Origin: Calditrichota bacterium
GTDB taxonomy: Bacteria; Calditrichota; Calditrichia; RBG-13-44-9; J042
Reading direction: 5' to 3'
NCBI GenBank assembly: GCA_013150955.1
Contig: JAADJD010000055.1
Coordinates: forward strand, 33,677 to 96,652
Length of the DNA: 62,976 nt
Part shown: piece by piece, positions 6,234 through 62,976 of the stretch
Layout: the number at the start of each line of letters is the position of its first letter
How positions within the stretch are numbered: the stretch's first letter is position 1
The notes under the pieces: generated by a model
Told to the model about the DNA's origin: nothing
The model's database searches: none
Seen by the model: only the letters and a program-made list of their open reading frames with translations
Position numbers and translations under genes: made by a program

Positions 6234-6381
6234 TGCGTTGCGTTTTTAAAACAACCCTCTTTCTTCAATTGTAATCATCGTAAACTTCAGGGAAATTGTT
6301 ATGAGAAAAATCCGGGAAAAATTTCACATTTTCCTTTTTGTTTTCACATTTGTGGATAAGCACGGGGATTTCCCGGTTAAT

Positions 6382-6548: not shown

Positions 6549-6646
6549 AATTTCCCCAGGACCAACGAAACGGGAAGGGAAACCATCCACCGTTCAGGAA
6601 GCGATCGGAGTGGACATCACCAGACAATACGGATCAAAGGGAAGGC

Positions 6647-7589: not shown

Positions 7590-7812
7590 AAGCGGTTAAT
7601 CCCAGATGATGCATCCGCCTACGAATGACACGAATGAACACCAATAAACCCAGATTATGCATTAGACCACGAATTGCACGAATTAACACAAATAAAAATA
7701 ATCAAATACATTAGATCAGATCTGGATGAAAAATTCGTTTCTAAGTTTATTCGCGATTTTATTGATATTTTTGGGTTTCATTCGCGTGATTCGTGGTTTC
7801 ACGCATTATTCG
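7590..7812 (+). repeat. AT-rich dispersed element (family B), forward copy with doubled left end
   Basis: Two successive left-end sequences are present: CCCAGATGATGCATCC near 7601 and CCCAGATTATGCATTAGACC near 7648. A single core (GATCAGATCTGGATG, TTTATTCGCGATTTT) and a right end ATTCGTGGTTTCACGCATTA follow. The doubling suggests one copy landed in, or recombined with, another. It lies between pilT and the HisA-like gene; no gene is seen in the remaining 7391-7590 stretch. Confidence 0.78.
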
Positions 7813-7832
7813 GCATAAATTCCAACCGCCTG

Positions 7833-20814: not shown

Positions 20815-21055
20815 ACCCAAACGATGCATTAAATCCAAATAAAGCGTTAAACCACGAATCTCACGAATGAATTCGAAAAAAATCAACAAAATAGCGAATA
20901 TGTCCAGGAAAACATTTTCATTCAGCATTCAGATAAAATCAAGTGCATTTTATTATTTTTATTGGTGTTCATTCGTGTGATTCATAGGCTATCGCATAAT
21001 TTGGGTTAATCCGTGTCATTCGTGGTCTAAGGCATAATCTGAGTTCAATCGGCAG
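20815..21055 (-). repeat. AT-rich dispersed element (family B), reverse copy
   Basis: This copy is inverted relative to those at 2.1-7.8 kb. It begins AACCCAAACGATGCATTAAA, has a second start-like segment near 20834, carries AAATAGCGAATATGTCC and ATTCAGATAAAATCAAG in the core, and ends with GCATAATTTGGGTTAA plus a further GTCTAAGGCATAATCTGAG. It accounts for most of the 20672-21092 gap; the 20672-20815 remainder shows nothing recognisable. Confidence 0.78.
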
Positions 21056-24947: not shown

Positions 24948-26072
24948 ATGTCCACGACCCAGACATCGGTGGTATCATCGCTGCGGGCTTCCGTCTGGCG
25001 CCGCTGGTTCGTTGTCCCGCTGCGGACACTGCTCAGCAATTCCATGATCCACGCCGTGCGCTGGACACCAATCCGGATTGTCAATGTGTTTCAGGCCACC
25101 CTCGCCATGGCGCTTTCCCGGTTGTTCCGGCGACCCATCATCTGGGGAGTTCCCCCCATGCTGATGATTGAACCCACCAACATTTGCAATCTCAAGTGCC
25201 CCATGTGTCCGTCGGGCAATGGCAGCATGACCCGGCCACGGGGACGGCTGGACCGGACGGCCTATCAGCGATTGATCGATGCAGTGGGACACCGCCTGCT
25301 GCAGATTCAATTGTGGAATCAGGGAGAACCGTTCATTCATCCCCGTCTGGTGGATTTTATTCGCTATGCCAAAGCCAGAGGCATCATGGTCATCACCTCT
25401 ACCAACGGCCATTTTATCCGCACGGACGAAGCGGCTCGCGAATTAATCCAGTCGGGATTGGATCAGCTGATTTTTTCGCTGGATGGTACCAATCCCGAAA
25501 CCTACACCCGCTACCGGGTGGGAGGCAACTTTCAGCGGGTTATGGACGCCCTGACGCGGATCGCGCGCATCCGTCGGGAAATGCGATCACCCACCCCGAT
25601 CATCGAGTTGCAATTTCTGGTTTTCCGCCATAACCAACACGAGATCGATGCATTGATCCAGTTTGCCGAGGCCATCGGGGTGGATCGGATTTCGTTCAAA
25701 AGCGCCCAGGTGTACACACAACCTCAGGCGCAGGCCTATCTGCCGGATGATCCCCGATTCAACCGATACGAAACCGGGACAACCGACGTGCGCATCAAGG
25801 GGCGACTCCCCAACTGGTGCAAGCGGCTCTGGCTGAATCCCGTGGTCAACTGGGATGGCACCCTGTCTCCCTGCTGTTTTGACAAGGATGCAGACTGGGC
25901 TATGGGAAATGTGTTTCGGGAGGAGCAGACATTTTCTGAGGTGTGGCGGGGACAGGCGTTTCAACGATTCCGATGGCATATTTTACATCGGCGAGCAGGC
26001 ATTCCCATGTGCCGAAACTGCACCGAGGGGCTTCCTCAGCCCTACGCCTACATTGTGAATTTGCCGCGATAA
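24948..26072 (+). CDS. Radical SAM/SPASM-domain enzyme
   Basis: The 374-residue protein has the radical SAM cluster motif CNLKCPMC near residue 80, WNQGEPFIHP, an STNGHFI motif and SLDGTNPETYTRYRVGG, all typical of the SPASM subfamily. A C-terminal auxiliary-cluster region begins CKRLW, includes SPCCFDKD and ends with MCRNC. Such enzymes modify peptides, sugars or lipids; the substrate is not evident. The N-terminal 75 residues (VPLRTLLSNSMIHAVRWT) are basic and may bind membranes. The ATG at 24948 is chosen over a GTG at 24891 because a TATATT element lies between them. A paralogue lies at 34740-35885, also paired with a GT2 gene. Confidence 0.88.
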   Translation: MSTTQTSVVSSLRASVWRRWFVVPLRTLLSNSMIHAVRWTPIRIVNVFQATLAMALSRLFRRPIIWGVPPMLMIEPTNICNLKCPMCPSGNGSMTRPRGRLDRTAYQRLIDAVGHRLLQIQLWNQGEPFIHPRLVDFIRYAKARGIMVITSTNGHFIRTDEAARELIQSGLDQLIFSLDGTNPETYTRYRVGGNFQRVMDALTRIARIRREMRSPTPIIELQFLVFRHNQHEIDALIQFAEAIGVDRISFKSAQVYTQPQAQAYLPDDPRFNRYETGTTDVRIKGRLPNWCKRLWLNPVVNWDGTLSPCCFDKDADWAMGNVFREEQTFSEVWRGQAFQRFRWHILHRRAGIPMCRNCTEGLPQPYAYIVNLPR

Positions 26073-26084
26073 ATCCAGACTTTG

Positions 26085-26350
26085 TACTAAACCACGAATG
26101 ACACGAATTAACTCAAATTAAATCCGGATTATGCTTTAGACCACGAATTTCGCGAATTAACACAAATAAAATCAATAAACCCAAATAAAGCGTTAAACCA
26201 CAAATCACGCGAATGAATTCGAAAAAAATCAACAAAATAGCGAATATATCCGGGAAAACATTTTCGTCCAGATAGAAACCAGTGCATTTTATTATTTTTA
26301 TTGGTGTTCATTCGTGTCATTCGTAGGCTAATGCATAATCTGGGTTTAAC
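26085..26350 (-). repeat. AT-rich dispersed elements (family B), reverse copy plus extra ends
   Basis: The gap between two convergent genes holds ACCACGAATGACACGAATTA, then GATTATGCTTTAGACCACG, then a complete reverse copy starting AACCCAAATAAAGCGTTAAA and ending GGCTAATGCATAATCTGGG. The core contains AAATAGCGAATATATCCGGG and TTTTATTATTTTTATTGG. The extra end fragments suggest repeated insertion at the same place. Confidence 0.78.
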
Positions 26351-26442: not shown

Positions 26443-27816
26443 TCACGCCTGCTCGCTTTCCCGAAGTCCGAATTTTTTAATTAGCCGGTGGATGGTTCGC
26501 CGATCCAGGCCACATGCCCTGGCCGTCTGGCTAATGTTCCACCCATGTCGATCCAGCTGATATTTCAGGTACTCCCGCTCAAAAGTGGCCAGCACCTGCT
26601 CTTTGGCCTCTTTGTAAGACAGATTCTCCCAGTGGCGCTTAAATCGGTGATAGCCGGATTGGCCGAGATACGCCGGCAAATCCACGGCACGGATCACCGG
26701 CGGATTGGCCAGGTAATAGGTGCGCTCGATCACGTTTTGCAATTCACGAACGTTTCCCGGCCATTCATAATGTTTGATGCGCTCCATGGCCTCGGGCTCA
26801 ATCCGGGTAATCTGGCGATTGTACTTCTGGTTCAACTGGTGCAGAAAATGTTCCACCAGAATGGGAATATCCTCTTTCCGTTCCCGCAGTGGGGGAATCT
26901 GGATTTGAATGGTGTTGATTCGGAAGAAAAAATCCTCCCGCAGCAGGCCAGCTTCCAGCAGCTCTTCCGGCTGACGGTTGGTCGCCGAAATGACCCGGAT
27001 GTCCACCGGAATTTCCTGGCTCCCTCCCACCCGACGAATCTTGCGATCCTCCAGCATGCGCAACAATTTCACCTGCATGGATTGCGGCATCTCGCATACT
27101 TCATCCAGAAACAGGGTACCGCCGTTAGCCAGTTCGACCAATCCCGGCTTGGACTGAAACGCCCCGGTAAAGGCCCCTTTTTCGTAACCAAACAGTTCGC
27201 TTTCAAACAGGGTTTCCGGTAACGCCCCACAATTGATGGGAATAAGGGGACGATTTCGCCGCAGAGAATTTTTGTGAATGCTGCGGGCGATTAACTCCTT
27301 GCCCACACCGCTCTCTCCCACTATCAGCACGTTGGCATTTCCCGGTGCAATTTTGCGAATCATTTCAAAGATGGCCTGCATGGCCGGGCTCTTCCCCACC
27401 ATCCCGTCAAATTCATGCCCCTGGATCCGTGCTTCCAGGATGGGTGCCACCTGTTGGAGCGCTTCCTCAATGGCACGGATCAGCTTTTTGGATGGAAATG
27501 GCTTCTCGATAAAATCGTAAGCCCCCTGCTTGACGGCCTCCACCCCGCGTTCCAGCGTGCCATAGCCGGTCACCATGATCACCGGCAGGTGGGGATGAGC
27601 CTGTTTTACCCGCTTCAGGAATTGCATGCCGTCCATGCCGGGCATTTTCAGGTCGCATATCACCAGTGCAAAATCATTTGGCCGCGAAAGCAATTCCAAT
27701 CCCCTGCGGGCACTGGTCACGGCCGTCACCCGATAACCAGCCCGTTCCAGAATCTTGGCATAACTTTCCAGCATCTCCTGCTCATCATCGATGACTAACA
27801 GGTCAACATTTTTCAT
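26443..27816 (-). CDS. NtrC-family sigma-54-dependent response regulator
   Basis: The 457-residue protein has a receiver domain (1-120; DDE near residue 10, phosphoacceptor in LVICDLKMPGMDG, Lys in EKPF), a sigma-54 AAA+ domain with Walker A GESGVGKE, the GAFTGA loop that contacts sigma-54 and FLDEVCEMP, and a Fis-type helix-turn-helix at the C-terminus (NISQTARACGLDRRTIHRL). The ATG at 27816 has GGAGG six bases upstream and overlaps the kinase gene by 14 bp, so the pair is translationally coupled. It should activate sigma-54 promoters in response to the kinase; no obvious -24/-12 promoter was found by eye in this window. Confidence 0.95.
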   Translation of the reverse strand: MKNVDLLVIDDEQEMLESYAKILERAGYRVTAVTSARRGLELLSRPNDFALVICDLKMPGMDGMQFLKRVKQAHPHLPVIMVTGYGTLERGVEAVKQGAYDFIEKPFPSKKLIRAIEEALQQVAPILEARIQGHEFDGMVGKSPAMQAIFEMIRKIAPGNANVLIVGESGVGKELIARSIHKNSLRRNRPLIPINCGALPETLFESELFGYEKGAFTGAFQSKPGLVELANGGTLFLDEVCEMPQSMQVKLLRMLEDRKIRRVGGSQEIPVDIRVISATNRQPEELLEAGLLREDFFFRINTIQIQIPPLRERKEDIPILVEHFLHQLNQKYNRQITRIEPEAMERIKHYEWPGNVRELQNVIERTYYLANPPVIRAVDLPAYLGQSGYHRFKRHWENLSYKEAKEQVLATFEREYLKYQLDRHGWNISQTARACGLDRRTIHRLIKKFGLRESEQA

Positions 27817-29308
27817 GAGTGGCCTCCAATTCGACAACAAAAGTTGCACCCTGCGACGCATCTTTCAGATATATGCGCCCATTGTGATGTTCCACAATGT
27901 TTTTGGCGATGAACAATCCCAGCCCCGTCCCTTCGCCATTGCGCCGGGTGGTAAAAAACGGGGAGAAAATTTTATCGCGAAATTCCTCCGGCACACCCGG
28001 CCCATTATCGCAAATGATCACCCGATGAACATCGCTGCCGGACTCCAGCACCACCGTGATCTGACCGCTCTCTCGCTCCACTGCATGAAGCGCGTTGGTG
28101 ATCAGATTGCAGAATACCTGTTCCAGCTGGGCGGCATTTCCCAGCAGACAGGCCGGTTCCCGCGGTGGCTGAAATTCCACCCGCACCCGTTTTTGGTGAA
28201 ACAGCGGTTCCAGAACTTTCAGGGATTGTTGAATGATTCTTCCTAACTCGCAGGGTTCAAAGGTTCGCGGCCGTTTGCGCGCATAGTGCAGAATGGAACG
28301 GGTGGTATCGGCAATCTTCTGGGTTTGATGAATGATCATGTCCAGGTCTTGGGAGAATTGCCGATCGGCCAGTTGGTCTTCCAGCTCCCCTTTCAGGTAT
28401 TCGGCGCGGGTGAGAATGATGCTGGCGGGATTGTTTACCTCGTGGGCAATTTCGGCGGCAATTTCGCCCAGGGTGACCAACCGATCTGCCCGCTCGATTT
28501 TTTCGCGCAACAGGTTTTCCTCGCGCTCGCGAGCTGCCTTCAACCGTTCCACCATGGTGTTGAATTTTTGTGCCAGCATGGCCAGCTCGTGCCGACCGGG
28601 CATGCGCACCTGCACCTGAAAATCCCCTTCTGCCAGGCGATCAAATCCCTGGATAATGCGCTTCAGGCGGGTCTCGATCTGACCGTGATACATAAAATTC
28701 AGCACCAGCCACAAGACCACCACGCTAATACCGGTGCTAAAAATGGTCAGGCGCTTGGCGGTTAAATACATTTGCTCCGATTGGGACAATATCACGTGCA
28801 AATCCATAATGGCAATCAGCTCGCCGCGATTTTTATGGCAGGGGGTGCACTCCTCCTGAATGTAGATGCCGTGGTGGTGCGAGTAGGTGTGGCCGCGGGT
28901 GTAATAGGCCTCTTTCACGTCAATCTTATCGCGATCCACCAGAACATCCCGTGAGAGATCTTGAATTTTGCGGTAGATTTCGGTGGAATCCGAGGAAAAG
29001 ATGATGGTGCCATCCATCCGGTAAATGCGCACCGAACGAATGGTGGGCTCCAGAGAAATCAATTCCAGATTTTTTTGAATCGCCTGGCGATTGTTCTGCA
29101 GCATGCCGGCGTAAATGGCCTGGTACACTACCTGGCTGGTGGTTTCCAGCATGTTGATGGTAAACTCCTGGTAATTCGCGTCCAGGATGTGGATGAGCAG
29201 GATCATGGGGCCACCAACCACGATTAGCAGCGCCAGGGTGATGAGCACCATGAGGCGAAATTTCAGGGAGTGCATAAATGCCCCAAAGTGCGGACGGTTG
29301 GTGTTCAT
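27803..29308 (-). CDS. Sensor histidine kinase with periplasmic heme c-binding motif
   Basis: The 501-residue membrane kinase has helix 1 (about 18-42), a periplasmic sensor domain, helix 2 (about 187-207), a HAMP domain (208-262), HisKA with phosphoacceptor His289 (EIAHEVNNP) and HATPase motifs ([21 protein letters not shown]). The sensor domain contains CTPCH at 154-158, a covalent heme c attachment motif, and a nearby histidine run (HTYSHHHG) that could supply a distal ligand. Periplasmic heme c sensors of this layout are known among redox- or gas-sensing proteins in Geobacter-type bacteria. It pairs with the NtrC-type regulator downstream. The ATG at 29308 is favoured by upstream GGGGTGG; an ATG at 29275 is possible. 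Confidence 0.93.
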
Positions 29309-29429
29309 GGCAACCACCCCGATGTTTTATCGGGTGTTTTTTAACTACTGGAATTTATGAAAGAGGGAACGAGAAAAGAAAGTCCCATTTGAGAAAAATG
29401 GCACATGGATGGGAATGGGCGTCCAATGT

Positions 29430-30785
29430 GGTTGAGGGAGGCGTTAGCGCCACGCAAGTGGTGTGGGGAGGAAGGGAACATCCCGATAATCCCATCCGTT
29501 GCCTGAAAGGCAGCGATAAAATATTGTGCCCTTACAGGGCGAGATAAACCATGAACGGATGTCGCCTCTTTTCCCAGGGGTGCTACCCCTGGCTATCATA
29601 TTTTGCCCCTTCGGGGTGGGTTGCCCGAAGGGCAACCATACGGTAGCCCCACGCTTTGCGTGGGGGGAGGAAGGGAACATACCAACAATCCCACCTGCTG
29701 CCTGAAGGGCAGCGATAAAATATTGTGCCCCTTCAGGGCGAGATAAAACATGAACGGAGGTTGCCACTTTTCCCAGGGGTGTTACCCCTGGCTACCATAT
29801 TTTGCCCCTTCGGGGCGGGTTGCATGAACGCTGGATTTCCCCAATCCCGGAGCGATGCCCCGGGCTAACCTATTTTGCCCTTTCAGGGCGCAATAAAATA
29901 TGAATGGTGCTCTCAAAATTCCCAGGGGCGTTACCCCTGGCTATCATATTTTGCCCCTTCGGGGCGGGTTGCCCGAAGGGCAACCATACGTTAGCCCCAC
30001 GCAACGCGTGGGGGGGGACATGAAATGCCCCAATATTTTTCAACCCCGTTGCCTGAAGGGCAGCGATAAAATATTGTGCCCCTTCAGGGCGAGATAAACC
30101 ACGCACGAAGGTCGCCTTCTCTCGCAGGGGTGTTACCCCTGGCTATCATATTTTGCCCCTTCGGGGCGTGTTGCCTGAAGGGCAACCATACGGTAGCCCC
30201 ACGCTTTGCGTGGTGGGGACATGAAATGCCCCAATATTTTTCAACCCCGTTGCCTGAAGGGCAGCGATAAAATATTTTGCCCTTACGGGGCGGAATGTAT
30301 GAACATTGGATTTCCCCACATCCCGGGGCGATGCCCCGGGCTAATCTATTTTGCCCTTTCAGGGCGGAACAACGGAGGTCGCCTATTTCCTCAGGGGTGA
30401 TACCCCTGTTAACCGTATTGCACCACCATGTGGCGGGTTGCCCGAAGGGCAACCATATTGTAGCCCCACGCAACGCGTGGGGAGAGGAAGGGAACATCCC
30501 GACAATCCCACCTGCTGCCTGAAGGGCAGCGATAAAATATTGTGCCCTTACAGGGCGGAATAAAAACACGAACGGAGGTTGCCTCTTTTCCCAGGGGTGT
30601 TCCCCCTGGCTACCGTATTGTGCCCCTTTGGGGCGGAATGCATGAACATTGGATTTTCCCATATCCCGGGGCGGCGCCACGGGCTATCCCATTCTGCCCA
30701 TTCGGGGCGGAATACCATGATTGGCGGTCTTTCCACATCCCGGGGTGATACCCTGGTTATCCTATTTTGCCCCTTCGGGGCGGTG
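29430..30785 (+). repeat. Palindrome-mosaic array 1
   Basis: About 1.35 kb of GC-rich hairpin modules in a fixed order. Recognisable palindromes are GCTGCCTGAAGGGCAGC, GCCCTTACAGGGC, CCCGGGGCGATGCCCCGGG, GCCCTTTCAGGGC, CCAGGGGTGTTACCCCTGG, GCCCCTTCGGGGC, TTGCCCGAAGGGCAA and CCCCACGCAACGCGTGGGG. Pairs of hairpins are joined by about 12-nt linkers such as CTACCATATTTT or GATAAAATATTGT; longer constant spacers (ATGAACGGAGGTCGCC; GGAACATCCCGATAAT) separate the pairs. The GCGATAAAATATT marker recurs near 29513, 29712, 30063, 30264 and 30529, giving uneven periods of about 200, 350, 200 and 265 bp as modules drop out. Open frames within it, including one of 198 codons at 30084-30680, are repeat by-products. 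Confidence 0.92.
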
Positions 30786-30870
30786 TGCGTGCGGAACACA
30801 TTTTCATCCCGATATCATCAAATGCATTTTAAAATTTTTGTACGGGTGAATTCGCGTAATTCGTAGACCA
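30786..30870 (-). repeat. Half copy of family B element abutting array 1
   Basis: Directly after the last array palindrome the sequence becomes GGAACACATTTTCATCCCGA, then TGCATTTTAAAATTTTTG and GAATTCGCGTAATTCGTAG, which are the core and right end of a reverse family B element. Its left half is missing where the array begins. Confidence 0.7.
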
Positions 30871-30885
30871 GAACAAAACCCGGCA

Positions 30886-30921
30886 TAAAAATACCGGGAT
30901 CCATTTCCCGGATCCCGGTAT
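30886..30921 (-). terminator. Rho-independent terminator of the octaheme cytochrome gene
   Basis: A perfect 12-bp stem (ATACCGGGATCC, 30891-30902, pairing with 30910-30921) has a 7-nt loop and, on the minus strand, is followed by a TTTTT run (plus-strand A residues at 30887-30891). It lies 29 bp past the stop of the cytochrome gene. Confidence 0.85.
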
Positions 30922-30949: not shown

Positions 30950-32413
30950 TTATCTCATCAACACCATCTTCCGGGAGAAAATCTGCTTCTCCGCCTCCAG
31001 ACGGTAAAAATAAATCCCACTGGGCAAATCGTTTGCATAAAACGTGACCCGATGCTTTCCTGGCGCCAACACGCCATTGGCCAGCACCGCAATTTCCTGT
31101 CCCACGGTATTGTAAACCGCCAGCTTCACCCGTGTGGTTCGTGGCAGGTGAAATTCAATGGTGGTGGTGGGATTAAACGGATTGGGATAATTCTGTAAGA
31201 GAGCAAAATCGACCGGAATTTCGATCGGCGATTCCGGGATGCCCACCAGACCATTGGTGTGAATGTCGAGAGCAAATCCGGCCGCCCATTCCACCGTCTT
31301 ATCCTGATGGCAGGGCAGACAGACAAAATCCAGCGTTACCGCACCATATCCATTGTCATCCAGGCGGACGTACTTCCCATCGGGAGTGAACATGGAGTCG
31401 CGTCCCACAGCGCGGGTGTCGATCTTCCACAGATGGGTGGCCACGTCACCCTTCCACCCATTGCCCAGCTGGGCACCGAGAGCCGATTTGCTGGCGTTTG
31501 GCATGTGGCAATCGGTACATTCCGCAGCATGCGGGGAACCATCCTGAAAGGTGATCTGTTTGTTGGGATGACAATTCTCGCATTCCAGTTTAATGCCGGA
31601 CAGCGGGTTGCCATTATTATCGGTACCGGCGGCATCGGGATATCGCAACGCCACATGGGTATTATGACAGGTTGCACAGGTCAATCCCATGGTGTTATGC
31701 TTGGAGGCCTGCATTTCGTTGTACTGTTCATGATGGCGGATGAATCCACCTTTGGCCGGAATCATATTCGTTTTGCTTCCCCGGGAATGACAATCGCCGC
31801 AGCGATGGTAGCGCAGGCTATCCGCCTGAATGGGGGGATGGGTGGTGGCGCTTGCCATATGATCACTGGCCGGGCCATGGCACCCCTCGCAACGAATTCC
31901 CGGCTCGGCAAATGTGCCCAGATCCGGGGTTATCTCGTTCCAGGAACCAGTGGGCTCGGGGCCAGTGGTGTGACATTTAAAACAATTGTAATTGTACGCC
32001 TTGGCCTCACCCTTGTGATAGGGCACCCATTGGGTTTCTCCACTTCCCCAGAGGTTGTACTGCGCCGAATCGTTGGCGGTAAAAATATAGCCATTCTTTT
32101 TAACAAAACGCGCCTTCCAGCCGAATCCACCAATGACGTAGGAAAGCGAATCCCAGGTCATACCATGGGGCGGTTCGGGAACCCCGGGACTGGTGTTGGT
32201 TGGATACACCGGCGGTGCCCCGGAAACCGGGTTCAATTTGAAAGGATGACCGGTCTTCATATACTCCTCGTAAATATTATAACCCGCCTGGGTCACGTCT
32301 GCCGAACCATGACAGGACATACAGGCATCCGATCCCACATAGTTCTGCGCCTGCAGCACCAGCGGTACCAGAAAGATCAGGAGTAAAACAGGTAGTCCAT
32401 AGAAACGTTTCAT
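30950..32413 (-). CDS. Secreted octaheme c-type cytochrome with type IX-style sorting domain
   Basis: The 487-residue protein has a signal peptide (about residues 1-22) and eight CxxCH heme motifs: CMSCH, CFKCH, CEGCH, CGDCH, CATCH, CENCH, CTDCH and CLPCH. After about residue 390 a C-terminal module starts NYPNPFNPTTTIEF and continues to GIYFYRLEAEKQIFSRKMVL, the Por secretion (type IX) sorting domain. The heme region resembles cytochrome c554/NrfB-like multiheme modules. Export across the outer membrane and a role in surface electron transfer or reduction of an extracellular acceptor are likely but inferred. Three start codons lie in tandem (GTG ATG ATG); the last (32413) has AAGGAGGA at optimal spacing. 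It starts 2 bp after the upstream receiver gene. Confidence 0.93.
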   Translation of the reverse strand: MKRFYGLPVLLLIFLVPLVLQAQNYVGSDACMSCHGSADVTQAGYNIYEEYMKTGHPFKLNPVSGAPPVYPTNTSPGVPEPPHGMTWDSLSYVIGGFGWKARFVKKNGYIFTANDSAQYNLWGSGETQWVPYHKGEAKAYNYNCFKCHTTGPEPTGSWNEITPDLGTFAEPGIRCEGCHGPASDHMASATTHPPIQADSLRYHRCGDCHSRGSKTNMIPAKGGFIRHHEQYNEMQASKHNTMGLTCATCHNTHVALRYPDAAGTDNNGNPLSGIKLECENCHPNKQITFQDGSPHAAECTDCHMPNASKSALGAQLGNGWKGDVATHLWKIDTRAVGRDSMFTPDGKYVRLDDNGYGAVTLDFVCLPCHQDKTVEWAAGFALDIHTNGLVGIPESPIEIPVDFALLQNYPNPFNPTTTIEFHLPRTTRVKLAVYNTVGQEIAVLANGVLAPGKHRVTFYANDLPSGIYFYRLEAEKQIFSRKMVLMR

Positions 32414-32415
32414 CA

Positions 32416-32790
32416 TCACTCCTCCTTTTTTGGTTTAAGAAACGATTGCACCATCTCCACCAGGTTTTTGATGGAAATCGGTTTGATAAAATAATTCACG
32501 TCCCCCATGGAGATGACTTCCGCGCAGTGCTTTAATTGATTGGGGGACAAAACCAGCAGCAATTTCACCTCGCTATTCAAAGAGCGCAGGATCCGCACCA
32601 GCTGGCTTAACGATTCTTTCAACAAATCCACATCCAGAATCACCAGCTGGGCGTAAGACCGGGTGTATTTCTCAAGAAAGTCCATACTCTGGTGACAGGT
32701 TTCGATGGTCAGGTGCATGTTTGTTAGTTCCTCCTCCACGTAATCCATTTCCCAATCATCCCGTCTGGCTAAAATCATCACCCGTTTCAT
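32416..32790 (-). CDS. Single-domain response regulator (receiver only)
   Basis: The 124-residue protein is a stand-alone CheY-like receiver. It has an acidic pair at RRDDWE, the phosphoacceptor Asp in LVILDVDLL near residue 53, LLVLSPNQ at the position of the usual T/S, and the conserved Lys in YFIKPIS near residue 104. There is no output domain. Only 2 bp separate its stop from the start of the octaheme cytochrome gene, so the two are co-transcribed and probably translationally coupled, an unusual pairing. It may be phosphorylated by the orphan-output hybrid kinase or the heme c kinase in this window; that is speculation. Confidence 0.85.
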   Translation of the reverse strand: MKRVMILARRDDWEMDYVEEELTNMHLTIETCHQSMDFLEKYTRSYAQLVILDVDLLKESLSQLVRILRSLNSEVKLLLVLSPNQLKHCAEVISMGDVNYFIKPISIKNLVEMVQSFLKPKKEE

Positions 32791-33099: not shown

Positions 33100-33545
33100 A
33101 TAATACGTTAAACCCAAATATGGTAAACCACGAATTACGCGAATGGAACCAAAAAATATCAATTAAATCGCGAATAACCCTCGAAACATATTTTTATACA
33201 GATAAAATCCATCGTATTTTATTATTTTTTTACCCGTTGTGCTAATTCAGGATAAAGCAGGTATTTAGAAAAACCGTTAAGACGGTTAAGAATCAATCGG
33301 TTACGTCATCTATTCTCCTGGCTGAAGCCAGGAGTTAATCGAAATTCTCATTCATTAACACCCAGATTTATCTGGGTGGACAACTCCTATAGTAACAATA
33401 AATTATAGAACCGTTTTAACGGTTTGGGTTGTCTAATTCGCAAAACGGGTTAATTTTATTTGTGTTAATTCGTGCAATTCGTGGTATAAAGCATAATCTG
33501 GGTTTATTTGTGTTCACTCGTGTGATTCGTAGGCTCCTGCAAATT
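33100..33545 (-). repeat. Family B element interrupted by another palindrome cluster
   Basis: A reverse family B copy starts TAAACCCAAATATGGTAAAC near 33110 and runs through TTTTATTATTTTTTTACCC near 33235. Its expected right end reappears only after about 33450 (TTAATTCGTGCAATTCGTGG, GCATAATCTGGG, then ATTCGTAGGCTCCTGC). Between them lies an unrelated hairpin cluster. The preceding stretch 32791-33100 shows no gene or recognisable repeat. Confidence 0.72.
33265..33440. repeat. AT-richer palindrome cluster (family C)
   Basis: Four palindromes follow one another: AACCGTTAAGACGGTT, CTCCTGGCTGAAGCCAGGAG, CACCCAGATTTATCTGGGTG and AACCGTTTTAACGGTT. They are separated by AT-rich linkers. The layout parallels the large GC-rich arrays, but the sequences are different and there is only one copy here. 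It sits inside a family B element. Confidence 0.8.
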
Positions 33546-33582
33546 CCGGGTTAAAAGTTGTGGTTATCCACATCACCGGCGC

Positions 33583-36129: not shown

Positions 36130-36300
36130 TTAACCCAAATAATGCATTGAATCGCGAATCACGCGAATGAATCGAAAAATATCCACAAAATAGATAACAA
36201 ACCCCGGAACACATTTTCATCCAGATAGAATCCAGTGCATTTTATTTTTTATTGGTGTTAATTCGTGTAATTCGTAGGCTAATGCATAATCTGGGTTTAA
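36130..36300 (-). repeat. AT-rich dispersed element (family B), reverse copy
   Basis: The element begins AACCCAAATAATGCATTGAA and ends GGCTAATGCATAATCTGGG, with the core AACACATTTTCATCCAGATA and CAGTGCATTTTATTTTTTAT. It lies between rsmB and the radical SAM gene. The flanks 35886-36130 and 36300-36397 show no gene. Confidence 0.82.
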
Positions 36301-43638: not shown

Positions 43639-43655
43639 AATAGAGGATGATGCAT

Positions 43656-44447
43656 ATGCCGAAACGGTCTCAAAAATCCAGAATTCCCCTGCCCCGGGAA
43701 CATGGCGCGTGGGGCATTTTGATTGGTGCGTTTCTTTCCGTTCCTGCCTACACCAAAACCATTGCCATATCTCAGATCACATTTTTGCTGGCAATCTTGC
43801 TGTTGTTCATCTCCCGCGAACCGTTGCTGCAAATGATTCGCGGTAAATATCAACGGGATCTCTTTCTCTGGTTTTTACGATTTGCCGTGGCCGGTGCGGG
43901 TTTTCTGGCACTATCAGCCTACCTGGCTGGATTCCCGGAATTGATTGCCTACACGGCGCTGATGTCCCTGTTTTTCGTGTTCGAAATGGTGCTGGTGCGA
44001 CAGGGCAAGGCCATGTCTTTTCTGGCCCATCTGATTGGCACGATTGGATTAACCACGATTGCTCCGCTAACCCTATTAATCCACACCCGTAGCGTTCAAC
44101 CCACCGTCTGGTTCATCTGGTTTTTAAACATTCTGTTTTTTGTGAGCGGGATTCTGTTCGTTCGTTACGAAATTGCATTAAAGAGCCGATCTGCCCGCAA
44201 TCGTCAGGAAGCGCGGCGATACCGCATGGCCATGATTTTATATCATTTGCTGCTGCTGGTATTTTTTGCGGTGTTGATTTACGCAGACAACCTGGTAACC
44301 TCAACGATTTTCCTGTTTTTGCCGATCACCCTGCAGGGTTTCTGGGCAGTGATCAGTCAGCAGGCCATTTCCAATTTAAAACTGGTGGGCTGGTTGCAGG
44401 TGGGACAAACCCTCTTTTTTGTGTTTTTGATCGCCTGGCTAATTTAG
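43656..44447 (+). CDS. YwiC-like membrane protein
   Basis: The roughly 263-residue integral membrane protein has eight or so helices and the family signature LPREHGAWGILIGAF near its N-terminus. YwiC-like proteins have no proven function, but the Bacillus ywiC gene lies in the nitrate respiration region and relatives recur near denitrification genes. Here it follows the NapH-like gene by about 10-20 bp in the same direction, fitting the nitrogen-oxide theme. Several in-frame ATGs are possible (43647, 43650, 43656); the last has AGAGG at suitable spacing. A GC-rich hairpin (44501-44523) 53 bp past the stop may end the transcript. Confidence 0.85.
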   Translation: MPKRSQKSRIPLPREHGAWGILIGAFLSVPAYTKTIAISQITFLLAILLLFISREPLLQMIRGKYQRDLFLWFLRFAVAGAGFLALSAYLAGFPELIAYTALMSLFFVFEMVLVRQGKAMSFLAHLIGTIGLTTIAPLTLLIHTRSVQPTVWFIWFLNILFFVSGILFVRYEIALKSRSARNRQEARRYRMAMILYHLLLLVFFAVLIYADNLVTSTIFLFLPITLQGFWAVISQQAISNLKLVGWLQVGQTLFFVFLIAWLI

Positions 44448-44531: not shown

Positions 44532-44592
44532 TTATTCCAGATTATGCATTCGATAACGAATGACACGAATGAACACAAAAAATAAAAATAAG
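44532..44592 (+). repeat. Half copy of family B element abutting array 2
   Basis: CCAGATTATGCATTCGATAA, then ACGAATGACACGAATGAACA and AAAAAATAAAAATAAG form the left arm of a forward family B element. The core and right end are absent; array 2 begins immediately after. Confidence 0.75.
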
Positions 44593-45400
44593 GTGGGGAG
44601 ATGCGGAGGGGTGGCGGATTTCCCCAATCCCGGGGCGATGCCCCGGGCTAATCTATTTTGCCCTTTCAGGGCAATGTACAACATGAACGGGGGTCGCCTC
44701 TTTTTCCAGGGGTGTTACCCCTGGCTACCGTATTGTGCCCCTTCAGGGCGAATGGATTTATTGGTTGATGTGTCAATCCTCGGGGTGTTGCCGCGAGTTT
44801 CCACATTATGCTCGCATGAGGCAAATTGCCCGAAGGGCAATGATAAGGTAGCCCCACGCAACGCGTGGGGGGGGAGATAATCCGTCCCATGCCACACCTG
44901 CTGCCTGAAGGGCAGCGATAAAATGATTACGCCCCTACAGGGCGGAATTGCATGAACGGTGGATTTCCCCACTCCCGGGGCGATGCCCCGGGCTAATCTA
45001 TTTTGCCCTTTCAGGGCAATGTACAACATGAACGGGGGTCGCCTCTTTTTCCAGGGGTGTTACCCTGGCTACCGTATTGTGCCCCTTCAGGGCGAATGAA
45101 TTTGTTGGTTGATGTGTCAATCCTCGAGGTGTTACCGCGAGTTTCCACATTATGCTCGCATGAGGCAAATTGCCCGAAGGGCAATGATACGGTAGCCCCA
45201 CGCAACGCGTGGGGGGGACGAATGAAACATCCCGATAATCCCCCTGCTGCCTGTAGGGCAGCGATAAAATGATTACGCCCCTACAGGGCGGAATTGCATG
45301 AAGGGTGGGTTTACCCACTCCCAGGGCGGTGCCCCGGGCTAACGTATTTTGCCCCTTCGGGGCGAATTGCCTGAAGGGCAACAAAATAACATCCCCCTGA
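44593..45400 (+). repeat. Palindrome-mosaic array 2
   Basis: Two near-complete cycles of the same ordered modules as array 1 lie here, about 350-355 bp apart: CCCGGGGCGATGCCCCGGG with GCCCTTTCAGGGC, CCAGGGGTGTTACCCCTGG with GCCCCTTCAGGGC, a variant segment with GATGTGTCAATCCTCGGGG and CATTATGCTCGCATGAGGC, TTGCCCGAAGGGCAA with CCCCACGCAACGCGTGGGG, and the GCTGCCTG module. The two cycles are nearly identical, including the variant segment, indicating a recent tandem duplication. The array fills the gap between the YwiC-like and POT transporter genes. Confidence 0.92.
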
Positions 45401-45555: not shown

Positions 45556-46854
45556 ATGTTTTTCAAGAAGCATCCTCGCGGTTTAATGATCCTCTTCTTC
45601 ACCGAAATGTGGGAACGCTTTGCGTTTTACACCATGCTGGCCGTCTTCACCCTGTTTATGGACGAGGTCATGGGCTGGAGCGACTCGGTGAAGGGGGATG
45701 TGTACGGCATCTTTCTGGCTGGCGTGTATTTCACTCCCATATTCGGTGGCTGGATTGCTGACCGTCTGCTGGGCTACCGGCGCACTATTATGACCGGTGC
45801 GGTGGTATTCGGCCTGGGTTACCTGTTGCTATCCCTTTCCGGGCCAGATGCAGTCTGGCTGTTCTTCATGGCGCTGGCTATCATCATCATCGGGAATGGA
45901 TTGTTCAAGGCCAATATATCGGTTCTGGTGGGCAATTTGTACGATGAAGGCAGTGAGCTCAAAGATGCTGGCTACATGATTTTTTACATGGGCATTAATC
46001 TGGGTGCACTGATGGCACCGCTGGTGGCCACTTTTTTACACAACAAGTTTGGCACCTACAATGCCGCCTTTGCTGCAGCGGCCGCCGGTATGCTGCTCTC
46101 ATTAATCGTTTTTGAACTGGGCAAGAAAAAATATCTTTACGCCGAGCAGCGACAGAAAGAAGATCTGGCGCGGCGGGTGAACGATACGGAATACATGAAC
46201 CAGCAGATGAGCAAAGAAGAAGAAAAGGAGCGTATCACCGCATTGATGATCATCTTTGCCATCGTCATCTTTTTCTGGATGTCGTTTCATCAGAACGGTT
46301 TTGCCCTGACCCTGTTTGCTCAGCGTTCTGTGGTAGAACTGGAATGGCTCAAACCGGAGACGTACCAGTTCTTCAACCCATTCTTTATCATTATTCTGGC
46401 GCCCCTGGTCATTCGCTTTTTTGATCGATTGCGGGCAAAAGGTAAGGAACCATCCACACCGGCCAAAATTGGTCTGGGTATGTTCATTTCGGGATTGGCC
46501 ATGATGGTCATGGTCGTTGCCAGCCTGATGGGTGGCAATCTGGATCAAAACATCATGTCTCCCTGGTGGTTGATCAGCACTTACTTCATCATCACCATTG
46601 GAGAATTGCACCTGAGTCCCATGGGGCTTTCCTTTGTTTCCAAAGTGGCGCCCATTCGCATGCGGGGATTGATGATGGGCTTCTGGTTTGGGGCCACGGC
46701 TATCGGAAACTATTTGTCGGGTTTCATCGGAAAGTTTTATAGCGATCTGCCACACCACATGTTTTTCCTGATTCTGGCCAGTCTGTTGTTCATTTCGGCG
46801 TTGCTGGTGCGGCTCTTTTTGAATAAACTAAAACATGCCACTCAGGGGGTGTAG
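45556..46854 (+). CDS. POT/PTR-family proton-dependent peptide transporter
   Basis: This 432-residue inner-membrane protein of the major facilitator superfamily shows family motifs FFTEMWERFAFYTML (the E-x-x-E-R-F region that handles proton coupling), GGWIADRLLGYRR between helices 2 and 3, and GNGLFKANISVLVG, matching the F-K-x-N signature. About twelve helices with a long charged loop in the middle (KKKYLYAEQRQKEDLARR) are evident. It probably imports di- and tripeptides with protons. It is somewhat shorter than the roughly 480-500 residues common in proteobacterial members. Confidence 0.93.
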   Translation: MFFKKHPRGLMILFFTEMWERFAFYTMLAVFTLFMDEVMGWSDSVKGDVYGIFLAGVYFTPIFGGWIADRLLGYRRTIMTGAVVFGLGYLLLSLSGPDAVWLFFMALAIIIIGNGLFKANISVLVGNLYDEGSELKDAGYMIFYMGINLGALMAPLVATFLHNKFGTYNAAFAAAAAGMLLSLIVFELGKKKYLYAEQRQKEDLARRVNDTEYMNQQMSKEEEKERITALMIIFAIVIFFWMSFHQNGFALTLFAQRSVVELEWLKPETYQFFNPFFIIILAPLVIRFFDRLRAKGKEPSTPAKIGLGMFISGLAMMVMVVASLMGGNLDQNIMSPWWLISTYFIITIGELHLSPMGLSFVSKVAPIRMRGLMMGFWFGATAIGNYLSGFIGKFYSDLPHHMFFLILASLLFISALLVRLFLNKLKHATQGV

Positions 46855-46929: not shown

Positions 46930-47060
46930 TCAACCCAGATTATGCAATGGCCTGCGAATTACACAAATTCTCACGAAAAAAAATCATAAAATCCATTCGG
47001 ATGATATCTGGATGAAAATGTGTTTCGGTGTTTATTCCTGATTGTGTGGATATTTTTTTA
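46930..47060 (+). repeat. Family B element truncated by array 3
   Basis: A forward copy starts AACCCAGATTATGCAATGGC and continues through the core (GATATCTGGATGAAAATG, TTTATTCCTGATTGTGTGGA) to GATATTTTTTTAG. At that point the usual right end (ATTCGCGTGATTCG...) is replaced by palindrome array 3. Confidence 0.75.
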
Positions 47061-47570
47061 GCGGGGCGATGCGAAGGGGTGACGGATTTCATCAATCCCA
47101 GGGCGATGCCCCGGGCTGCCATATTTTGCCCTTTCAGGGCGAAATAAAATATGAATGGTGTTCTCAAAATTCCCAGGGGTGGTACCCCTGGCTGCCATAT
47201 TTTGCCCCATCGGGGCGGGTTGCCTGTAAGGCAATGATACGTTAGCCCCCACGCTTTGCGTGGGGGGGACATGAAATACCCATTATTTTACACCTCCGCT
47301 GCCTGTAGGGCAGCGATAAAATATTTTGCCCTTACAGGGCGAATGATGTTTATGGTTTGGGGGGCTCCCCAATCCCGGGGCGATGCCCCGGGCTAACGTA
47401 TTTTGCCCCTTCGGGGGCGGGTTGCCTGAAGGGTAACCATACGTTAGCCCCACGCTTTGCGTGGGGGGGAGAATGAAACATCCCGATAATCCCCCCACTG
47501 CCTGAAGGGCAACAATATAAATTTTGCCCCTTCAGGGCGGAATGGATTAACGGTGGAGTTCCCCAATCTT
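47061..47570 (+). repeat. Palindrome-mosaic array 3
   Basis: About one and a half cycles of the same modules in the same orientation: CCAGGGCGATGCCCCGGG, GCCCTTTCAGGGC, CCAGGGGTGGTACCCCTGG, GCCCCATCGGGGC, CCCACGCTTTGCGTGGG, GCTGCCTGTAGGGCAGC, GCCCTTACAGGGC and again CCCGGGGCGATGCCCCGGG. The linkers keep CTGCCATATTTT or CTAACGTATTTT. Several stems carry paired changes (CTGTAGGG versus CTGAAGGG in loops). It lies between the convergent POT transporter and thioesterase genes. Confidence 0.9.
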
Positions 47571-49469: not shown

Positions 49470-50714
49470 ATGAATCCCAGTAAGGATGACATATTCGATC
49501 TGTTCTCTCGATATGTTTCTTCAGGAAAAACTCGCTTTTTTCGGGAAGCCGGTATCGACTTTGTCTTTGGAAAGCGGGAAGGCCCGTTTGTGTGGGACAT
49601 TGATGGCAAACGGCGGCTCATCGATTGCCATTGTAATGGAGGCGTGTTCAATCTGGGACACCGGCACCCGGAGATTGTCGAGCTCCTTCGGGACGCACTG
49701 TCCCGTGTCGATATTGGCAACCACCATTTTGTGAGTCAGTACCGGGCTCAACTGGCGGAAAAACTGGCAGCCCTCACGCCCGGGAATCTCCAGTATACCA
49801 TCTTTGGCGTGAGCGGCGGCGAGGCCATCGATACAGCAATTAAAATTGCCCGCGGGGCGACCGGTCGCCGAAAGATTCTATCCGTCAAAGGGGCTTACCA
49901 CGGCCACACGGGACTGGCCGTTGCCACCGGCGATGCGAAGTACAGCCAGCCGTTCCTGAGCGATTCTCCGGATTTCGTCCAGGTGCCATTCAACGATGTA
50001 GCCGCCCTCACCCAGACGCTCACAGAAGAATTCGCCGCTGTCATCCTGGAAACCATTCCCGCCACGCTGGGAATGCCCATTCCCGATTCCGACTATTTTC
50101 AGAAAGTCCACCAGGTCTGCCGGCAACGGGGTAGCCTGCTCATTATTGATGAAGTTCAAAGCGGACTGGGACGGACGGGGAAGCTGTGGGCCATTTCCCA
50201 TTTCGACACCGTTCCCGACATTCTGGTCACCGGAAAGGGCCTCAGTGGAGGATTGTATCCCATCACTGCCACCATCATCCGTCCGGAACTGGAAATCCTG
50301 TTTCAGGACGATCCGTTCATTCACATTTCCACCTTCGGGGGTAGCGAATTGGGATGTCTGGTGGCCAGTAAGGTACTGGACATCACCCGGCAACGTGAAT
50401 TTCTGGAACACGTCAATCGCCTGGCCAACATCTTTGCGGACGGACTGGACACATTGCGCCAGCGCTTTGAAGGATTTCTGGTTGATGTGCGCCAGAAGGG
50501 ACTCATGATCGGATTAAAAATGGCCGATGAGCGCCTGGGGCCGGTAATGACCCGCGCCTGCTTCGAAACCGGATTGCTATGCGTCTTTGCCGGTAACGAT
50601 ACGTCCGTGGTGCAATTCCTTCCGCCTTTGATTATTGACGAAACCCTGGCGCAGGAAATCCTCCAGCGATTACACCAGGCCTTCCAGATCGGGCAGGAAT
50701 TCATCTCGTCGTGA
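49470..50714 (+). CDS. Class III PLP-dependent aminotransferase
   Basis: The 414-residue enzyme of the acetylornithine/ornithine aminotransferase fold has VWDIDGKRRLIDCHCNGGVFNLGHR-type opening strands (residues about 41-65), the phosphate-binding GVSGGEAID, YHGHTG, the cofactor Asp in IIDEVQSGLGRTG (Asp227) and the Schiff-base Lys256 in LVTGKGLSGG. All catalytic residues are intact. The natural substrate is not evident: CHCNGG replaces the usual D-x-x-x-G pattern, and no arginine or biotin genes are near. It is translationally coupled to the kinase-like gene that follows, which suggests a shared pathway. Confidence 0.92.
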   Translation: MNPSKDDIFDLFSRYVSSGKTRFFREAGIDFVFGKREGPFVWDIDGKRRLIDCHCNGGVFNLGHRHPEIVELLRDALSRVDIGNHHFVSQYRAQLAEKLAALTPGNLQYTIFGVSGGEAIDTAIKIARGATGRRKILSVKGAYHGHTGLAVATGDAKYSQPFLSDSPDFVQVPFNDVAALTQTLTEEFAAVILETIPATLGMPIPDSDYFQKVHQVCRQRGSLLIIDEVQSGLGRTGKLWAISHFDTVPDILVTGKGLSGGLYPITATIIRPELEILFQDDPFIHISTFGGSELGCLVASKVLDITRQREFLEHVNRLANIFADGLDTLRQRFEGFLVDVRQKGLMIGLKMADERLGPVMTRACFETGLLCVFAGNDTSVVQFLPPLIIDETLAQEILQRLHQAFQIGQEFISS

Positions 50715-50725
50715 GGGCAGGCATC

Positions 50726-51682
50726 ATGCTATCCGTCGATCGAAAATTGCTTCAGGAATTCGAGAATCAATTGAATCCGGCCAATCCATTTGCCAGTAAA
50801 ATCCCGTTCAAGATTCTGGGTTACGGAGAAATTTCCACTGTATTTCAGATTGGGGACATGGAAGACGTCGCCCTCAAACGCATGCCTCCCTTTGCCAGTA
50901 AGGAACAGCGCCGGGAATATCGCCAGGTGCTGGAAGAATATCACCAGATTTTAAGCCAAAAAATCGGAATTCGGGTTGCCGAATATGCATGCGAAGAATT
51001 TACCAACAAGGATGGAGAACATATCCTGTACATTGTTCAGGAACGGCTGCCCGAAGAAAGCATCGGGCATCGCTGGTTGCAACGGTGTTCCGACACCGAG
51101 CTGACGGTTCTAATCCACCGGGTGCTGGACAATCTGGTGAAAATCTGGCGCAAGAATCAGCAGGATGCTCCGGAGGAAGTGATCGGCCTGGATGCGCAGA
51201 TTTCCAACTGGTCATTCACCGGACTGGACAGCGAGGATGCTTCGGAACCCGTTTATCTGGACACCAGCACCCCGTTGATTCGCCGGTTTGGCCATGAGCT
51301 TCTGAATACCGAAATATTTCTGAAAAGCGTGCCACCGTTTCTGGTGTGGATTGTCAAACTGGCCTTTCTGCAGCAGGTTCTGGATCGCTATTACGATCTG
51401 CATCTGGTGTTGACGGATTTCGTGGCCAATTTTTATAAGGAAGGTCAAGCACACCGCATTCCGCTGGCCGTTCAAATAATCAATGCTTATCTGGCACAGC
51501 AGGCCGTTGATTTAAATATTGCGCCGCTCTCGGAAAAGGAGGTTCGCAAATATTACCGGGAAGATGCTTTCATCTGGATCATTTTTTTAAATTTTCGTCG
51601 GTTTGATCGGTTTTTAAAAACCCGCCTGTTCCGTCGGAAATATAATTTCATCCTGCCAGGCACGATTAAACGGTTTTCGTAA
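50726..51682 (+). CDS. Kinase-fold-like protein of unknown function (resembles DUF6206)
   Basis: The 318-residue protein has no certain assignment. Its opening, FKILGYGEISTVFQIGDMEDVALKRM (about residues 30-55), looks like the glycine-rich loop and lysine of protein or aminoglycoside kinases; VQERLPEES resembles a hinge, and VYLDTSTPLIRR could be a metal-binding DxD-like position, though a clear HxD catalytic loop is not visible. It resembles proteins annotated DUF6206. The upstream GTG at 50711 overlaps the aminotransferase stop by 4 bp; the ATG at 50726 with GGGCAGG upstream is equally plausible and is used here. The C-terminus is basic (RLFRRKYNFI). Confidence 0.6.
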   Translation: MLSVDRKLLQEFENQLNPANPFASKIPFKILGYGEISTVFQIGDMEDVALKRMPPFASKEQRREYRQVLEEYHQILSQKIGIRVAEYACEEFTNKDGEHILYIVQERLPEESIGHRWLQRCSDTELTVLIHRVLDNLVKIWRKNQQDAPEEVIGLDAQISNWSFTGLDSEDASEPVYLDTSTPLIRRFGHELLNTEIFLKSVPPFLVWIVKLAFLQQVLDRYYDLHLVLTDFVANFYKEGQAHRIPLAVQIINAYLAQQAVDLNIAPLSEKEVRKYYREDAFIWIIFLNFRRFDRFLKTRLFRRKYNFILPGTIKRFS

Positions 51683-51689
51683 AATTCAA

Positions 51690-52995
51690 CCCGCCCCGAA
51701 GGGACATAATACGGTAGCCAGGGGTAACACCCCTGGAAAAAGAGGCGACCTCCGTTTATGTTGTACATCGCCCCGAAGGGGCAAAATACGTTAGCCCGGG
51801 GCACCACCCCGGGAGTGGGGAGCCCCCCAAACCATAAACATCATTCGCCCTGTAGGGGCATAATATTTTATCGCTGCCCTTCAGGCAGCGGAATTGTAAA
51901 ATATTGGGCATTTCATCTCCCCCACGCGCTGCGTGGGGCTACCTTATCATTGCCCTTCGGGCAATTTGCCTCATGCAAGCATAATGTGGAAACTCGCGGT
52001 AACACCCTGAGGATTGACACATCAACCAACAAATCCATTCGCCCCGAAGGGGCAAAATATGGTAGCCAGGGGTACCTCCCCCGGAAAAAGAGGCGACCTC
52101 CGTTCATGTTGTACATCGCCCTGAAGGGGCAAAATACGTTAGCCCGGGGCACAGCCCCAGGATTGGGGAAATCCAGCGTTCATGCAATTCCGCCCTGTAG
52201 GGGCAAAATATTTCTATCGCTGCCCTACAGGCAGCGGGGGTGGCATGGGACGGATTATCTCCCCCCCCACGCGTTGCGTGGGGCTACCTTATCATTGCCC
52301 TTCGGGCAATTTGCCCCAAAGGGGCACAATATGGCAGCCAGGGGTACCACCCCTGGAAAAAAGGCGACCTCCGTTCATGTTGTACATCGCCCTGAACTGG
52401 CACAATAGGATAGCCCGGGGCATCGCCCCGGGATTGGGGAAATCCAGCGTTCATGCAATTCCGCCCTTTAGGGGCATGATCATTTTATCGCTGCCCTTCA
52501 GGCAGCGGAATTGTAAAATATTGGGCATTTCATCTCCCCCACGCGCTGCGTGGGGCTACCATATGGTTGCCCTTCAGGCAACCCGCCCCGAAGGGGCAAA
52601 ATATGGTAGCCAGAGGTACCACCCCTGGGAAAAGAGGCGACCTCCGTTCATGTTGTACATCGCCCCGAAGGAGCATAATAAGATAGCCCGGGGCACCGCC
52701 CCGGGATTGGGGAGCCCCCCAAACCATAAACATCATTCGCCCTGTAGGGGCACAATATTTTATTGCTGCCCTTCAGACAGTGGATGGGATTATCTGGATG
52801 TTCCATTCCCCCCCACGCAAAGCGTGGGGGCTAACATATGGTTGCCCTTCAGGCAACCCGCCCCGAAGGGGCATAATACGGTAGCCAGGGGTACCACCCC
52901 TGGGAATTTTGAAAGCACCATCCATATTTTATTTCGCCCTGAAAGGGCAAAATAAATTTGCCCGGGACATCGCTCCACGGATTCGGGAATCCCAC
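51690..52995 (-). repeat. Palindrome-mosaic array 4, inverted
   Basis: About 1.3 kb of the same modules but in reverse order and orientation relative to arrays 1-3 and 5. Reverse markers such as AATATTTTATCGCTGCCC occur near 51870 and 52480, and GGTAGCCAGGGGTACC, GTTAGCCCGGGGCACC and CCCCACGCGTTGCGTGGGG mark other modules. It holds about four partial cycles, including the variant segment (GATTGACACATCAACCAAC) shared with array 2. It fills the gap between the kinase-like gene and glgC. Open frames of 216 and 257 codons (51758-52408, 52182-52955) repeat the same peptide phrases and are judged not to be genes. Confidence 0.92.
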
Positions 52996-53100: not shown

Positions 53101-53153
53101 GTTAACGCAAAACACCGGAATCGCAAACAGAACAAAACACTCGGGTGGGAAAA

Positions 53154-62424: not shown

Positions 62425-62976
62425 TAATGGTGGATATCCCCCATCCCGGGCCGAAGCCCCGGGCTCATGTATTGTGCCCTTTCAGGGCGAGATAAAACAT
62501 GAACGGAGGTCGCCTTTTTTTCCAGGGGTGTTACCCCTGGCTACCATATTATGCCCCTTCGGGGCGAAAGTTTTTTAATGTTCCCATCCACGGAGTGTTA
62601 CCCCGAGCCACCGTATTTTGCCCCTACGAGGCAATTTGCCCGAAGGGCAAACATACGGTAGCCCCACGCATCGCGTGGGGTGGGGAATGGAACATCCCGA
62701 TAATCCCATCCGCTGCCTGTAGGGCAGCAATATTTATTTTGCCCCTTCAGGGCGGGGGCGGGATGAATTAACGTTGGATATCCCCAATCCCGGGGCGATG
62801 CCACAGGATAATGTATTGTGCCCTTTCAGGGCGAGATAAAACATGAACGGAGGTCGCCTTTTTTTCTACCGTATTGTGCCCCTAAGGGGCGAAGGTTTTT
62901 TAATGTTCCCATCCACGGAGTGTTACCCCGAGCCACCGTATTTTGCCCCTACGAGGCAATTTGCCCGAAGGGCAAA
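62425..62976 (+). repeat. Palindrome-mosaic array 5, continuing beyond the window
   Basis: Forward-orientation modules follow the NusG-like gene: a CCCGGGCCGAAGCCCCGGG module with GCCCTTTCAGGGC, CCAGGGGTGTTACCCCTGG with GCCCCTTCGGGGC, a variant spacer GTTTTTTAATGTTCCCATCC, TTGCCCGAAGGGCAA, CCCCACGCATCGCGTGGGG and the GCTGCCTGTAGGGCAGC module. A second cycle starts near 62780, about 345 bp later, and has lost the CCAGGGG palindrome through a deletion while keeping its flanks. The array runs off the right edge. Confidence 0.92.

Follow-up and report, generated by a model that had tools for sequence, protein, structure and literature searches.

Ordered hairpin arrays in a Calditrichota genome: probable REP-like clusters associated with a subclass 1.2 Y1 transposase

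REP, BIME and REPIN elements, which are associated with RAYT transposases (TnpAREP, class 2; Nunvar 2010; Bertels & Rainey 2011), are palindromes present in many intergenic copies. The automatic REP search of Quentin et al. 2018 (PMC6006769) relied on a GT[AG]G tag. That paper places TnpA-Y1 subclass 1.2 mostly in Cyanobacteria and Bacteroidetes, associates no REPs with it, and characterizes it by DH[IV]H, WQ and Y---Q--HH motifs, a length of ~148 aa, a conserved carboxy-terminal tail and low copy number. A third relevant element is the Acido-Lenti-1 motif (Rfam RF01687), which Weinberg et al. 2010 (PMC2864571) call 'probably' RNA and not cis-regulatory; a 2026 paper (PMC13298647) regards its function as little known and proposes a regulatory role.

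Here we describe five intergenic hairpin arrays in a stretch of 62,976 nt (the window) on contig C11 of a Calditrichota genome (4.07 Mb, 66 contigs). Our analysis makes it highly probable that these arrays consist of clustered non-autonomous mobile DNA of a BIME/REPIN-like kind, which would be mobilized by a class-1 (subclass 1.2) Y1 transposase.

Architecture of the five arrays

All five arrays consist of paired hairpins, L-linker-S, in a fixed order, and four such pairs make up a cycle of ~345 nt. The L hairpin has a stem of 6-8 and a loop of ~5, and the S hairpin a stem of 5 and a loop of 3. The linker often contains TATT; it is typically 12 nt long (21 of 47 window pairs) and starts with CTA in 29 of the 47, a TAG tag is present in 29 of the 47, and most neighbouring pairs are set apart by spacers of ~25-34 nt. 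The four pairs of a cycle are P1 (CCCGGGGcgatgCCCCGGG-CTAAYNTATTTT-GCCCYTTCRGGGC), P2 (CCAGGGGtgttaCCCCTGG-CTACCATATTTT-GCCCCTTCGGGGC), the inverted P3 (TTGCCCGAAGGGCAA-..GTAG-CCCCACGcaacGCGTGGGG) and P4 (GCTGCCTGAAGGGCAGC-GATAAAATATTTT-GCCCYTACAGGGC). In a blind scan for an L hairpin, an 8-14-nt linker and an S hairpin, the arrays (4,621 nt) yielded 43 strong pairs; the other 57,600 nt of the window and five shuffles of the array sequence yielded none.

An earlier, sequence-only reading had described different hairpins in constant order, paired through a roughly 12-nt linker, with uneven periods caused by missing modules, and our analysis confirms this description in substance. The period is 344-346 nt (a complete cycle) in the 44.6-kb array, 271-274 and 348 nt in the 51.7-kb array, and about 200, 267 and 350 nt in the 29.4-kb array; such uneven, shorter periods are expected if whole modules are missing. 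Two details need amending: one of the four pair types, P3, runs opposite to its neighbours, and the five arrays, correctly counted, cover 7.3% of the window rather than about 8%.

The unit of these arrays is a triad of hairpins, S-L-S, which occurs in direct and inverted orientation; the 5' foot of L bears an NTAG-like tag. Array 1 (29430..30785, + strand; 15 L-linker-S pairs, 10 triads) is neighboured by a histidine-kinase gene (27803-29317, -) and a multihaem cytochrome gene (30950-32419, -), and array 2 (44610..45380, +; two regular 345-nt cycles, 6 triads) by a YwiC-like gene (43647-44447, +) and a POT transporter gene (45556-46854, +). Array 3 (47085..47560, +; 6 pairs, 2 triads with E < 1e-3) has convergent genes on either side, and array 4 (51690..52990, -; 12 triads) is neighboured by a DUF6206 gene (50711-51682, +) and a GlgC-like gene (53145-54437, +). 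Array 5 (62425..62976, +; 4 triads in the window) reaches the window end and runs on for ~510 nt, to about C11:97163.

Other features in and around the arrays deserve mention. The multihaem cytochrome beside array 1 carries a Por secretion tail domain, hinting at an FCB-group lineage with type IX secretion. Long open reading frames cross the arrays (29444-29767 and 30084-30680 in the window; 3163-6480 at locus L011), and those read in L011 encode peptide repeats, PTRCVG and APRNAWG among them. The frames are likely to be annotated as proteins; as genes they are probably spurious, and we set them aside as repeat read-through. A second repeat family of ~180 nt, with about a dozen copies and inverted ends (AACCCAGATTATGC..CCACGAATT..CACGAAT / ATTCGTGG..GCATAATCTGGGTT), is found at 2104-2283, 6378-6550, 7597-7821, 20821-21047, 26061-26348, 33108-33554, 36132-36299, 57586-57765 and elsewhere, and half copies of it adjoin arrays at 44532-44600, 46930-47050 and 30809-30888. 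Outside the arrays, two adjacent strong hairpins (CTCCTGGCTGAAGCCAGGAG, CACCCAGATTTATCTGGGTG) at 33310-33372 give a weak, sub-threshold match to the Rfam nuoG family (28.6 versus 33 bits).

Triads at transposase genes and the Acido-Lenti-1 pair

The modules recur across the source genome, as the sequence-only reading had proposed to check: a one-cycle BLAST query gave 109 matches at ~25 loci, and the whole genome holds at least 94-100 triads. Two Y1 transposase genes are present, on contigs C35 and C13. The C35 tnpA (C35:4807-5259, minus strand, 150 aa), the single subclass-1.2 copy in the genome, sits within a larger array and has inverted triads on its two sides, at C35:4613-4702 (-) and 5455-5541 (+); inspection of the adjacent ORFs revealed no TnpB. 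The protein contains the motifs D54-H-V-H57, W95-Q96 and Y115VQNQEQHH123, of which D54, H55, H57, W95, Q96, Y115, Q119, H122 and H123 are invariant across 17 homologs, and a C-terminal tail (FQEE..FDERYVW) that is conserved among homologs. By the tests available, namely the HUH, WQ and Y---Q--HH motifs together with length and tail, the enzyme belongs to TnpA-Y1 subclass 1.2. Its AlphaFold2 model (pLDDT 84) matches IS608 TnpA-hairpin DNA complexes (2vih etc.) with E ~1e-8; its match to the RAYT-REP complex 4er8 is weaker. The earlier suggestion of a RAYT gene flanked by the same palindromes is therefore right as to the Y1 transposase and its flanks, but not as to the class, which is TnpA subclass 1.2 with no strict GTAG tag.

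About 20 near full-length homologs of the C35 protein (46-56% identity) occur in Verrucomicrobia, Planctomycetes, Hydrogenedentes, Chloroflexi and Desulfobacterota (Desulfococcaceae). S-L-S triads are seen at most of these ~20 foreign tnpA loci, mostly on both sides and inverted, in the layout S, ~20-30 nt, L, CT-linker, S. We aligned 25 triads from these flanks (alignment A1); part of the coordinates were set by hand because the automatic triad finder, whose shuffle control was not clean, combined the wrong hairpins in several flanks. CT comes after L in 24 of the 25 triads, and AG is the one near-invariant element at the foot of L.

A covariance model (R1) was made from those 25 foreign flanks, with no window sequence included. 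In the window, R1 detects 34 triads at E < 1e-3, all within the five arrays, and outside the arrays nothing below E ~1 except a partial match at 44503 (E 0.39). The top-scoring triad, at 29877..29966 (+), reaches 59.9 bits (E 1.8e-12) with this model made from other phyla only. One example, a direct triad at 44660..44750 (+; E 1e-9), reads S GCCCTTTCAGGGC, 33 nt, L CCAGGGGtgttaCCCCTGG, CTACCGTATTGT, S GCCCCTTCAGGGC, and the same cycle contains an inverted triad at 44826..44914 (-; E 7e-6) that reads S TTGCCCGAAGGGCAA, tag GTAG, L CCCCACGcaacGCGTGGGG, S GCTGCCTGAAGGGCAGC. R1 also scores triads around the C35 tnpA and throughout the source genome. The C13 gene, which is RAYT-like with a below-cut-off match to NCBIfam REP_Tyr_transpos, was rejected as the partner of the arrays since its flanks carry other, GTAG-tagged palindromes, in which R1 finds nothing. 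At window positions 1-212 there are tandem GTAG-tagged hairpins (GTCCCGCAAAGCGGGACGTAG.., GCGCAGGCATAAAGCCTGCGACTACC) that resemble classical REPs and also the palindromes beside the C13 gene (L012:3511-3990).

The stems of the triads covary. In A1, 98.4% of stem cells are paired, 11 of 17 pairs are compensatory and a single cell is G.U. Changes on both sides of a pair number 46 in A1 against 8.2 +/- 2.4 in shuffles, a control that ignores relatedness yet is free of the bias that favours the slid controls, the structure having been picked by eye on the same alignment. Within the source genome the corresponding numbers are 329 and 113 +/- 7. The excess of compensatory changes that the sequence-only reading had proposed to test for is thus present in both data sets, and together with genome-wide recurrence and the tnpA flanks it supports that reading's suggestion of BIME/REPIN-like non-autonomous mobile DNA.

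The only Rfam family above threshold in the arrays is RF01687, Acido-Lenti-1, which has the build of the array pairs (L hairpin, CTA linker, S hairpin). Four L-linker-S pairs in the window score above the gathering score of 37 bits: 45320..45364 (+; 40.7 bits), 30322..30366 (+; 39.8 bits), and 44629..44673 and 44974..45018 (both +; 38.8 bits). A further ~20 sub-threshold matches all fall within the arrays. By the tests available, the L-linker-S pair is a member of this family. RF01687 also occurs inverted on both sides of foreign tnpA genes (L034, L037 and L047), and 16 of 17 genomes chosen by tnpA alone hold Acido-Lenti-1, 14 of them over the cut-off, as against none of 14 control genomes. 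Acido-Lenti-1 therefore looks like mobile DNA and not an RNA gene, although its link to transposases may have been remarked on earlier in the literature. If this is true, a family of little-known function gains a function, and annotations of Acido-Lenti-1 as non-coding RNA genes need correcting to mobile-element palindromes.

Dispersed copies are found in a Desulfococcaceae genome (G040), where one L-linker motif has 303 copies at up to two mismatches and the reversed pattern has none. This palindrome family flanks the tnpA genes at C305 and C75, and those at C373 and C338 are flanked by two further families, likewise built as S-L-S. With four full-length tnpA genes and three palindrome families (L122, L131-L134), G040 offers a natural test of enzyme-palindrome specificity. 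At C75, tandem S-L repeats on either side of tnpA form a miniature of the window arrays. Ten G040 units were scanned for shared ends; the four that were measured are 174-234 nt long and have ~24-nt ends (GGGCGTATTTACAA-like arms), beyond which the flanks are unrelated. Such ~24-nt shared ends were not seen in the window, where the units are fused into arrays, whereas those of G040 are dispersed.

Distribution among relatives and rival readings

Across 40 genomes of the phylum, tnpA match strength correlates with copy number (Spearman 0.59 for triads and 0.64 for RF01687, uncorrected for phylogeny). All 15 phylum genomes with over-cut-off Acido-Lenti-1 have tnpA, and none of the eight tnpA-less ones has over-cut-off Acido-Lenti-1; with the strongest tnpA class left out, presence and absence are weakly associated (at looser cut-offs, p 0.11 and 0.45). 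In two genomes of the same family, G025 and G027 (86-89% complete, 400-650 contigs), triads are present and no tnpA was found, so the gene was lost there or missed. Inverted triad pairs are seen in G027 and in another relative, G030. Several genomes with weaker tnpA matches have no R1 or Acido-Lenti-1 matches; at least some of these have S-L-S flanks with different stem sequences, and others show none.

In a species of the same genus (G026, 98% complete), neither this tnpA nor triads were found. The sites of arrays 1, 3 and 4 measure 78, 190 and 267 nt there, as against 1541, 793 and 1473 nt here, and are thus shorter by ~1460, ~600 and ~1,200 nt, respectively; the parts of the orthologous sites that were read contain no triad. 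The fourth aligned site, at 44.6 kb, is not a clean comparison because G026 holds ~700 nt of unrelated sequence there. Since the intergenic DNA is too diverged, the comparison yields gap sizes and no exact insertion boundaries, and the shorter sites could be deletions instead of never-occupied sites.

The base pairs bear on whether the hairpins act as DNA or as RNA. G.U accounts for 1 of 425 cells in A1 and 24 of 2038 (1.2%) in a further alignment, A3, or ~1% of 2,463 cells in all; it is no commoner than A.C, many A.C cells lying at one loop-closing pair. Selection on an RNA strand should favour G.U, so its near-absence argues for hairpins of DNA, as would suit a transposase that recognizes single strands, although the pairs may still be transcribed. 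It is accordingly improbable that the pairs are structured RNAs, either a small RNA, the type under which Rfam lists RF01687 and which agrees with the 'probably' of the 2010 text, or terminators or stabilisers of 3' regions. The C(UUCG)G found in many S loops is stable in RNA, and all five arrays lie between codirectional or convergent genes; yet, besides the almost purely Watson-Crick covariation, the hairpins are not followed by a T-tract in the sequences read, near-identical dispersed copies number up to ~300, inverted copies flank tnpA, and G026 lacks both the arrays and tnpA. The role in transcript termination or stabilisation raised by the sequence-only reading found nothing in its favour.

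Ordinary satellite-like tandem repeats, shaped by recombination alone and with tnpA merely inserted in one array, are a very unlikely explanation. Slippage or unequal recombination could account for the tandem periods and for deletions of module length, and the C35 tnpA does lie inside an array, but inverted triads flank tnpA across phyla mostly without any array, the three G040 palindrome families each flank different tnpA genes, and the G040 units disperse with shared ends. Still less credible is that the hairpins are selected host elements, such as sites for nucleoid or topology proteins, whatever their mobile origin. Gyrase or IHF has such roles at E. coli BIMEs (PMC2817692) and the stems are strongly conserved; against this, array positions are not conserved between same-genus species, and recognition by a transposase already explains the conservation of the hairpins.

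According to the favoured reading, mobile DNA, an IS200-like HUH/Y1 transposase would have the triads as its terminal palindromes, the only such gene found in the genome being that on C35. The enzyme most likely binds hairpins that form where DNA is single-stranded, as on the lagging strand, and would cut and rejoin beside them, so that units bounded by two inverted triads may be moved or copied. Ordered cycles would then grow from neighbouring units by slippage or unequal recombination, and modules may be lost by the same route.

Comparison with known systems

That the arrays work like a REP/BIME system is strongly supported. As in RAYT systems, the palindromes are multi-copy and intergenic and lie in either orientation, a Y1 HUH transposase gene is found between inverted copies of them, turnover is at the species level and arrays are mosaic; the alternating orientation, fixed spacers and tandem clusters are those of BIMEs. 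Membership of the class-2 RAYT/REPtron group itself is ruled out because two defining features fail: the catalytic motif is Y---Q--HH here and Y---NP there, and where that group has a conserved GT[AG]G at the 5' foot of the hairpin, near-invariance at the foot of L is here limited to AG. The three-hairpin S-L-S unit and the cycles of four different hairpin pairs also set these arrays apart from RAYT/REP.

The resemblance to IS200/IS605 elements (IS608, ISDra2) lies in the TnpA fold, as modelled by AlphaFold2, and in the subterminal hairpins. Such insertion sequences have several near-identical tnpA copies, often with tnpB; here there is one tnpA, no TnpB is seen nearby, and non-autonomous palindromes, in their hundreds, take the place of identical IS copies, and we do not assign the arrays to this group. 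Acido-Lenti-1 shares the L hairpin, the 12-nt CTA linker and the S hairpin, but PMC2864571 describes an RNA found in Acidobacteria and Lentisphaerae and states no function for it, whereas here it belongs to a larger triad, which is found in dispersed units and where tnpA elements end.

The closest enzyme group is subclass 1.2, with which the C35 protein shares DHVH, WQ and Y---Q--HH motifs, a length of ~150 aa, a conserved tail and few copies per genome. Unlike in the account of this subclass in PMC6006769, cognate palindromes are present here, and in several other phyla; they may have been overlooked earlier because GTAG is not required and AG alone is nearly invariant. It is likely, if less certain than the nature of the arrays, that class-1.2 Y1 transposases have a REP-type system of their own, with an S-L-S substrate, an AG-type tag, an occurrence in at least six phyla and Acido-Lenti-1 as the substrate core, in which case a transposase subclass reported without a REP partner gains a partner in DNA.
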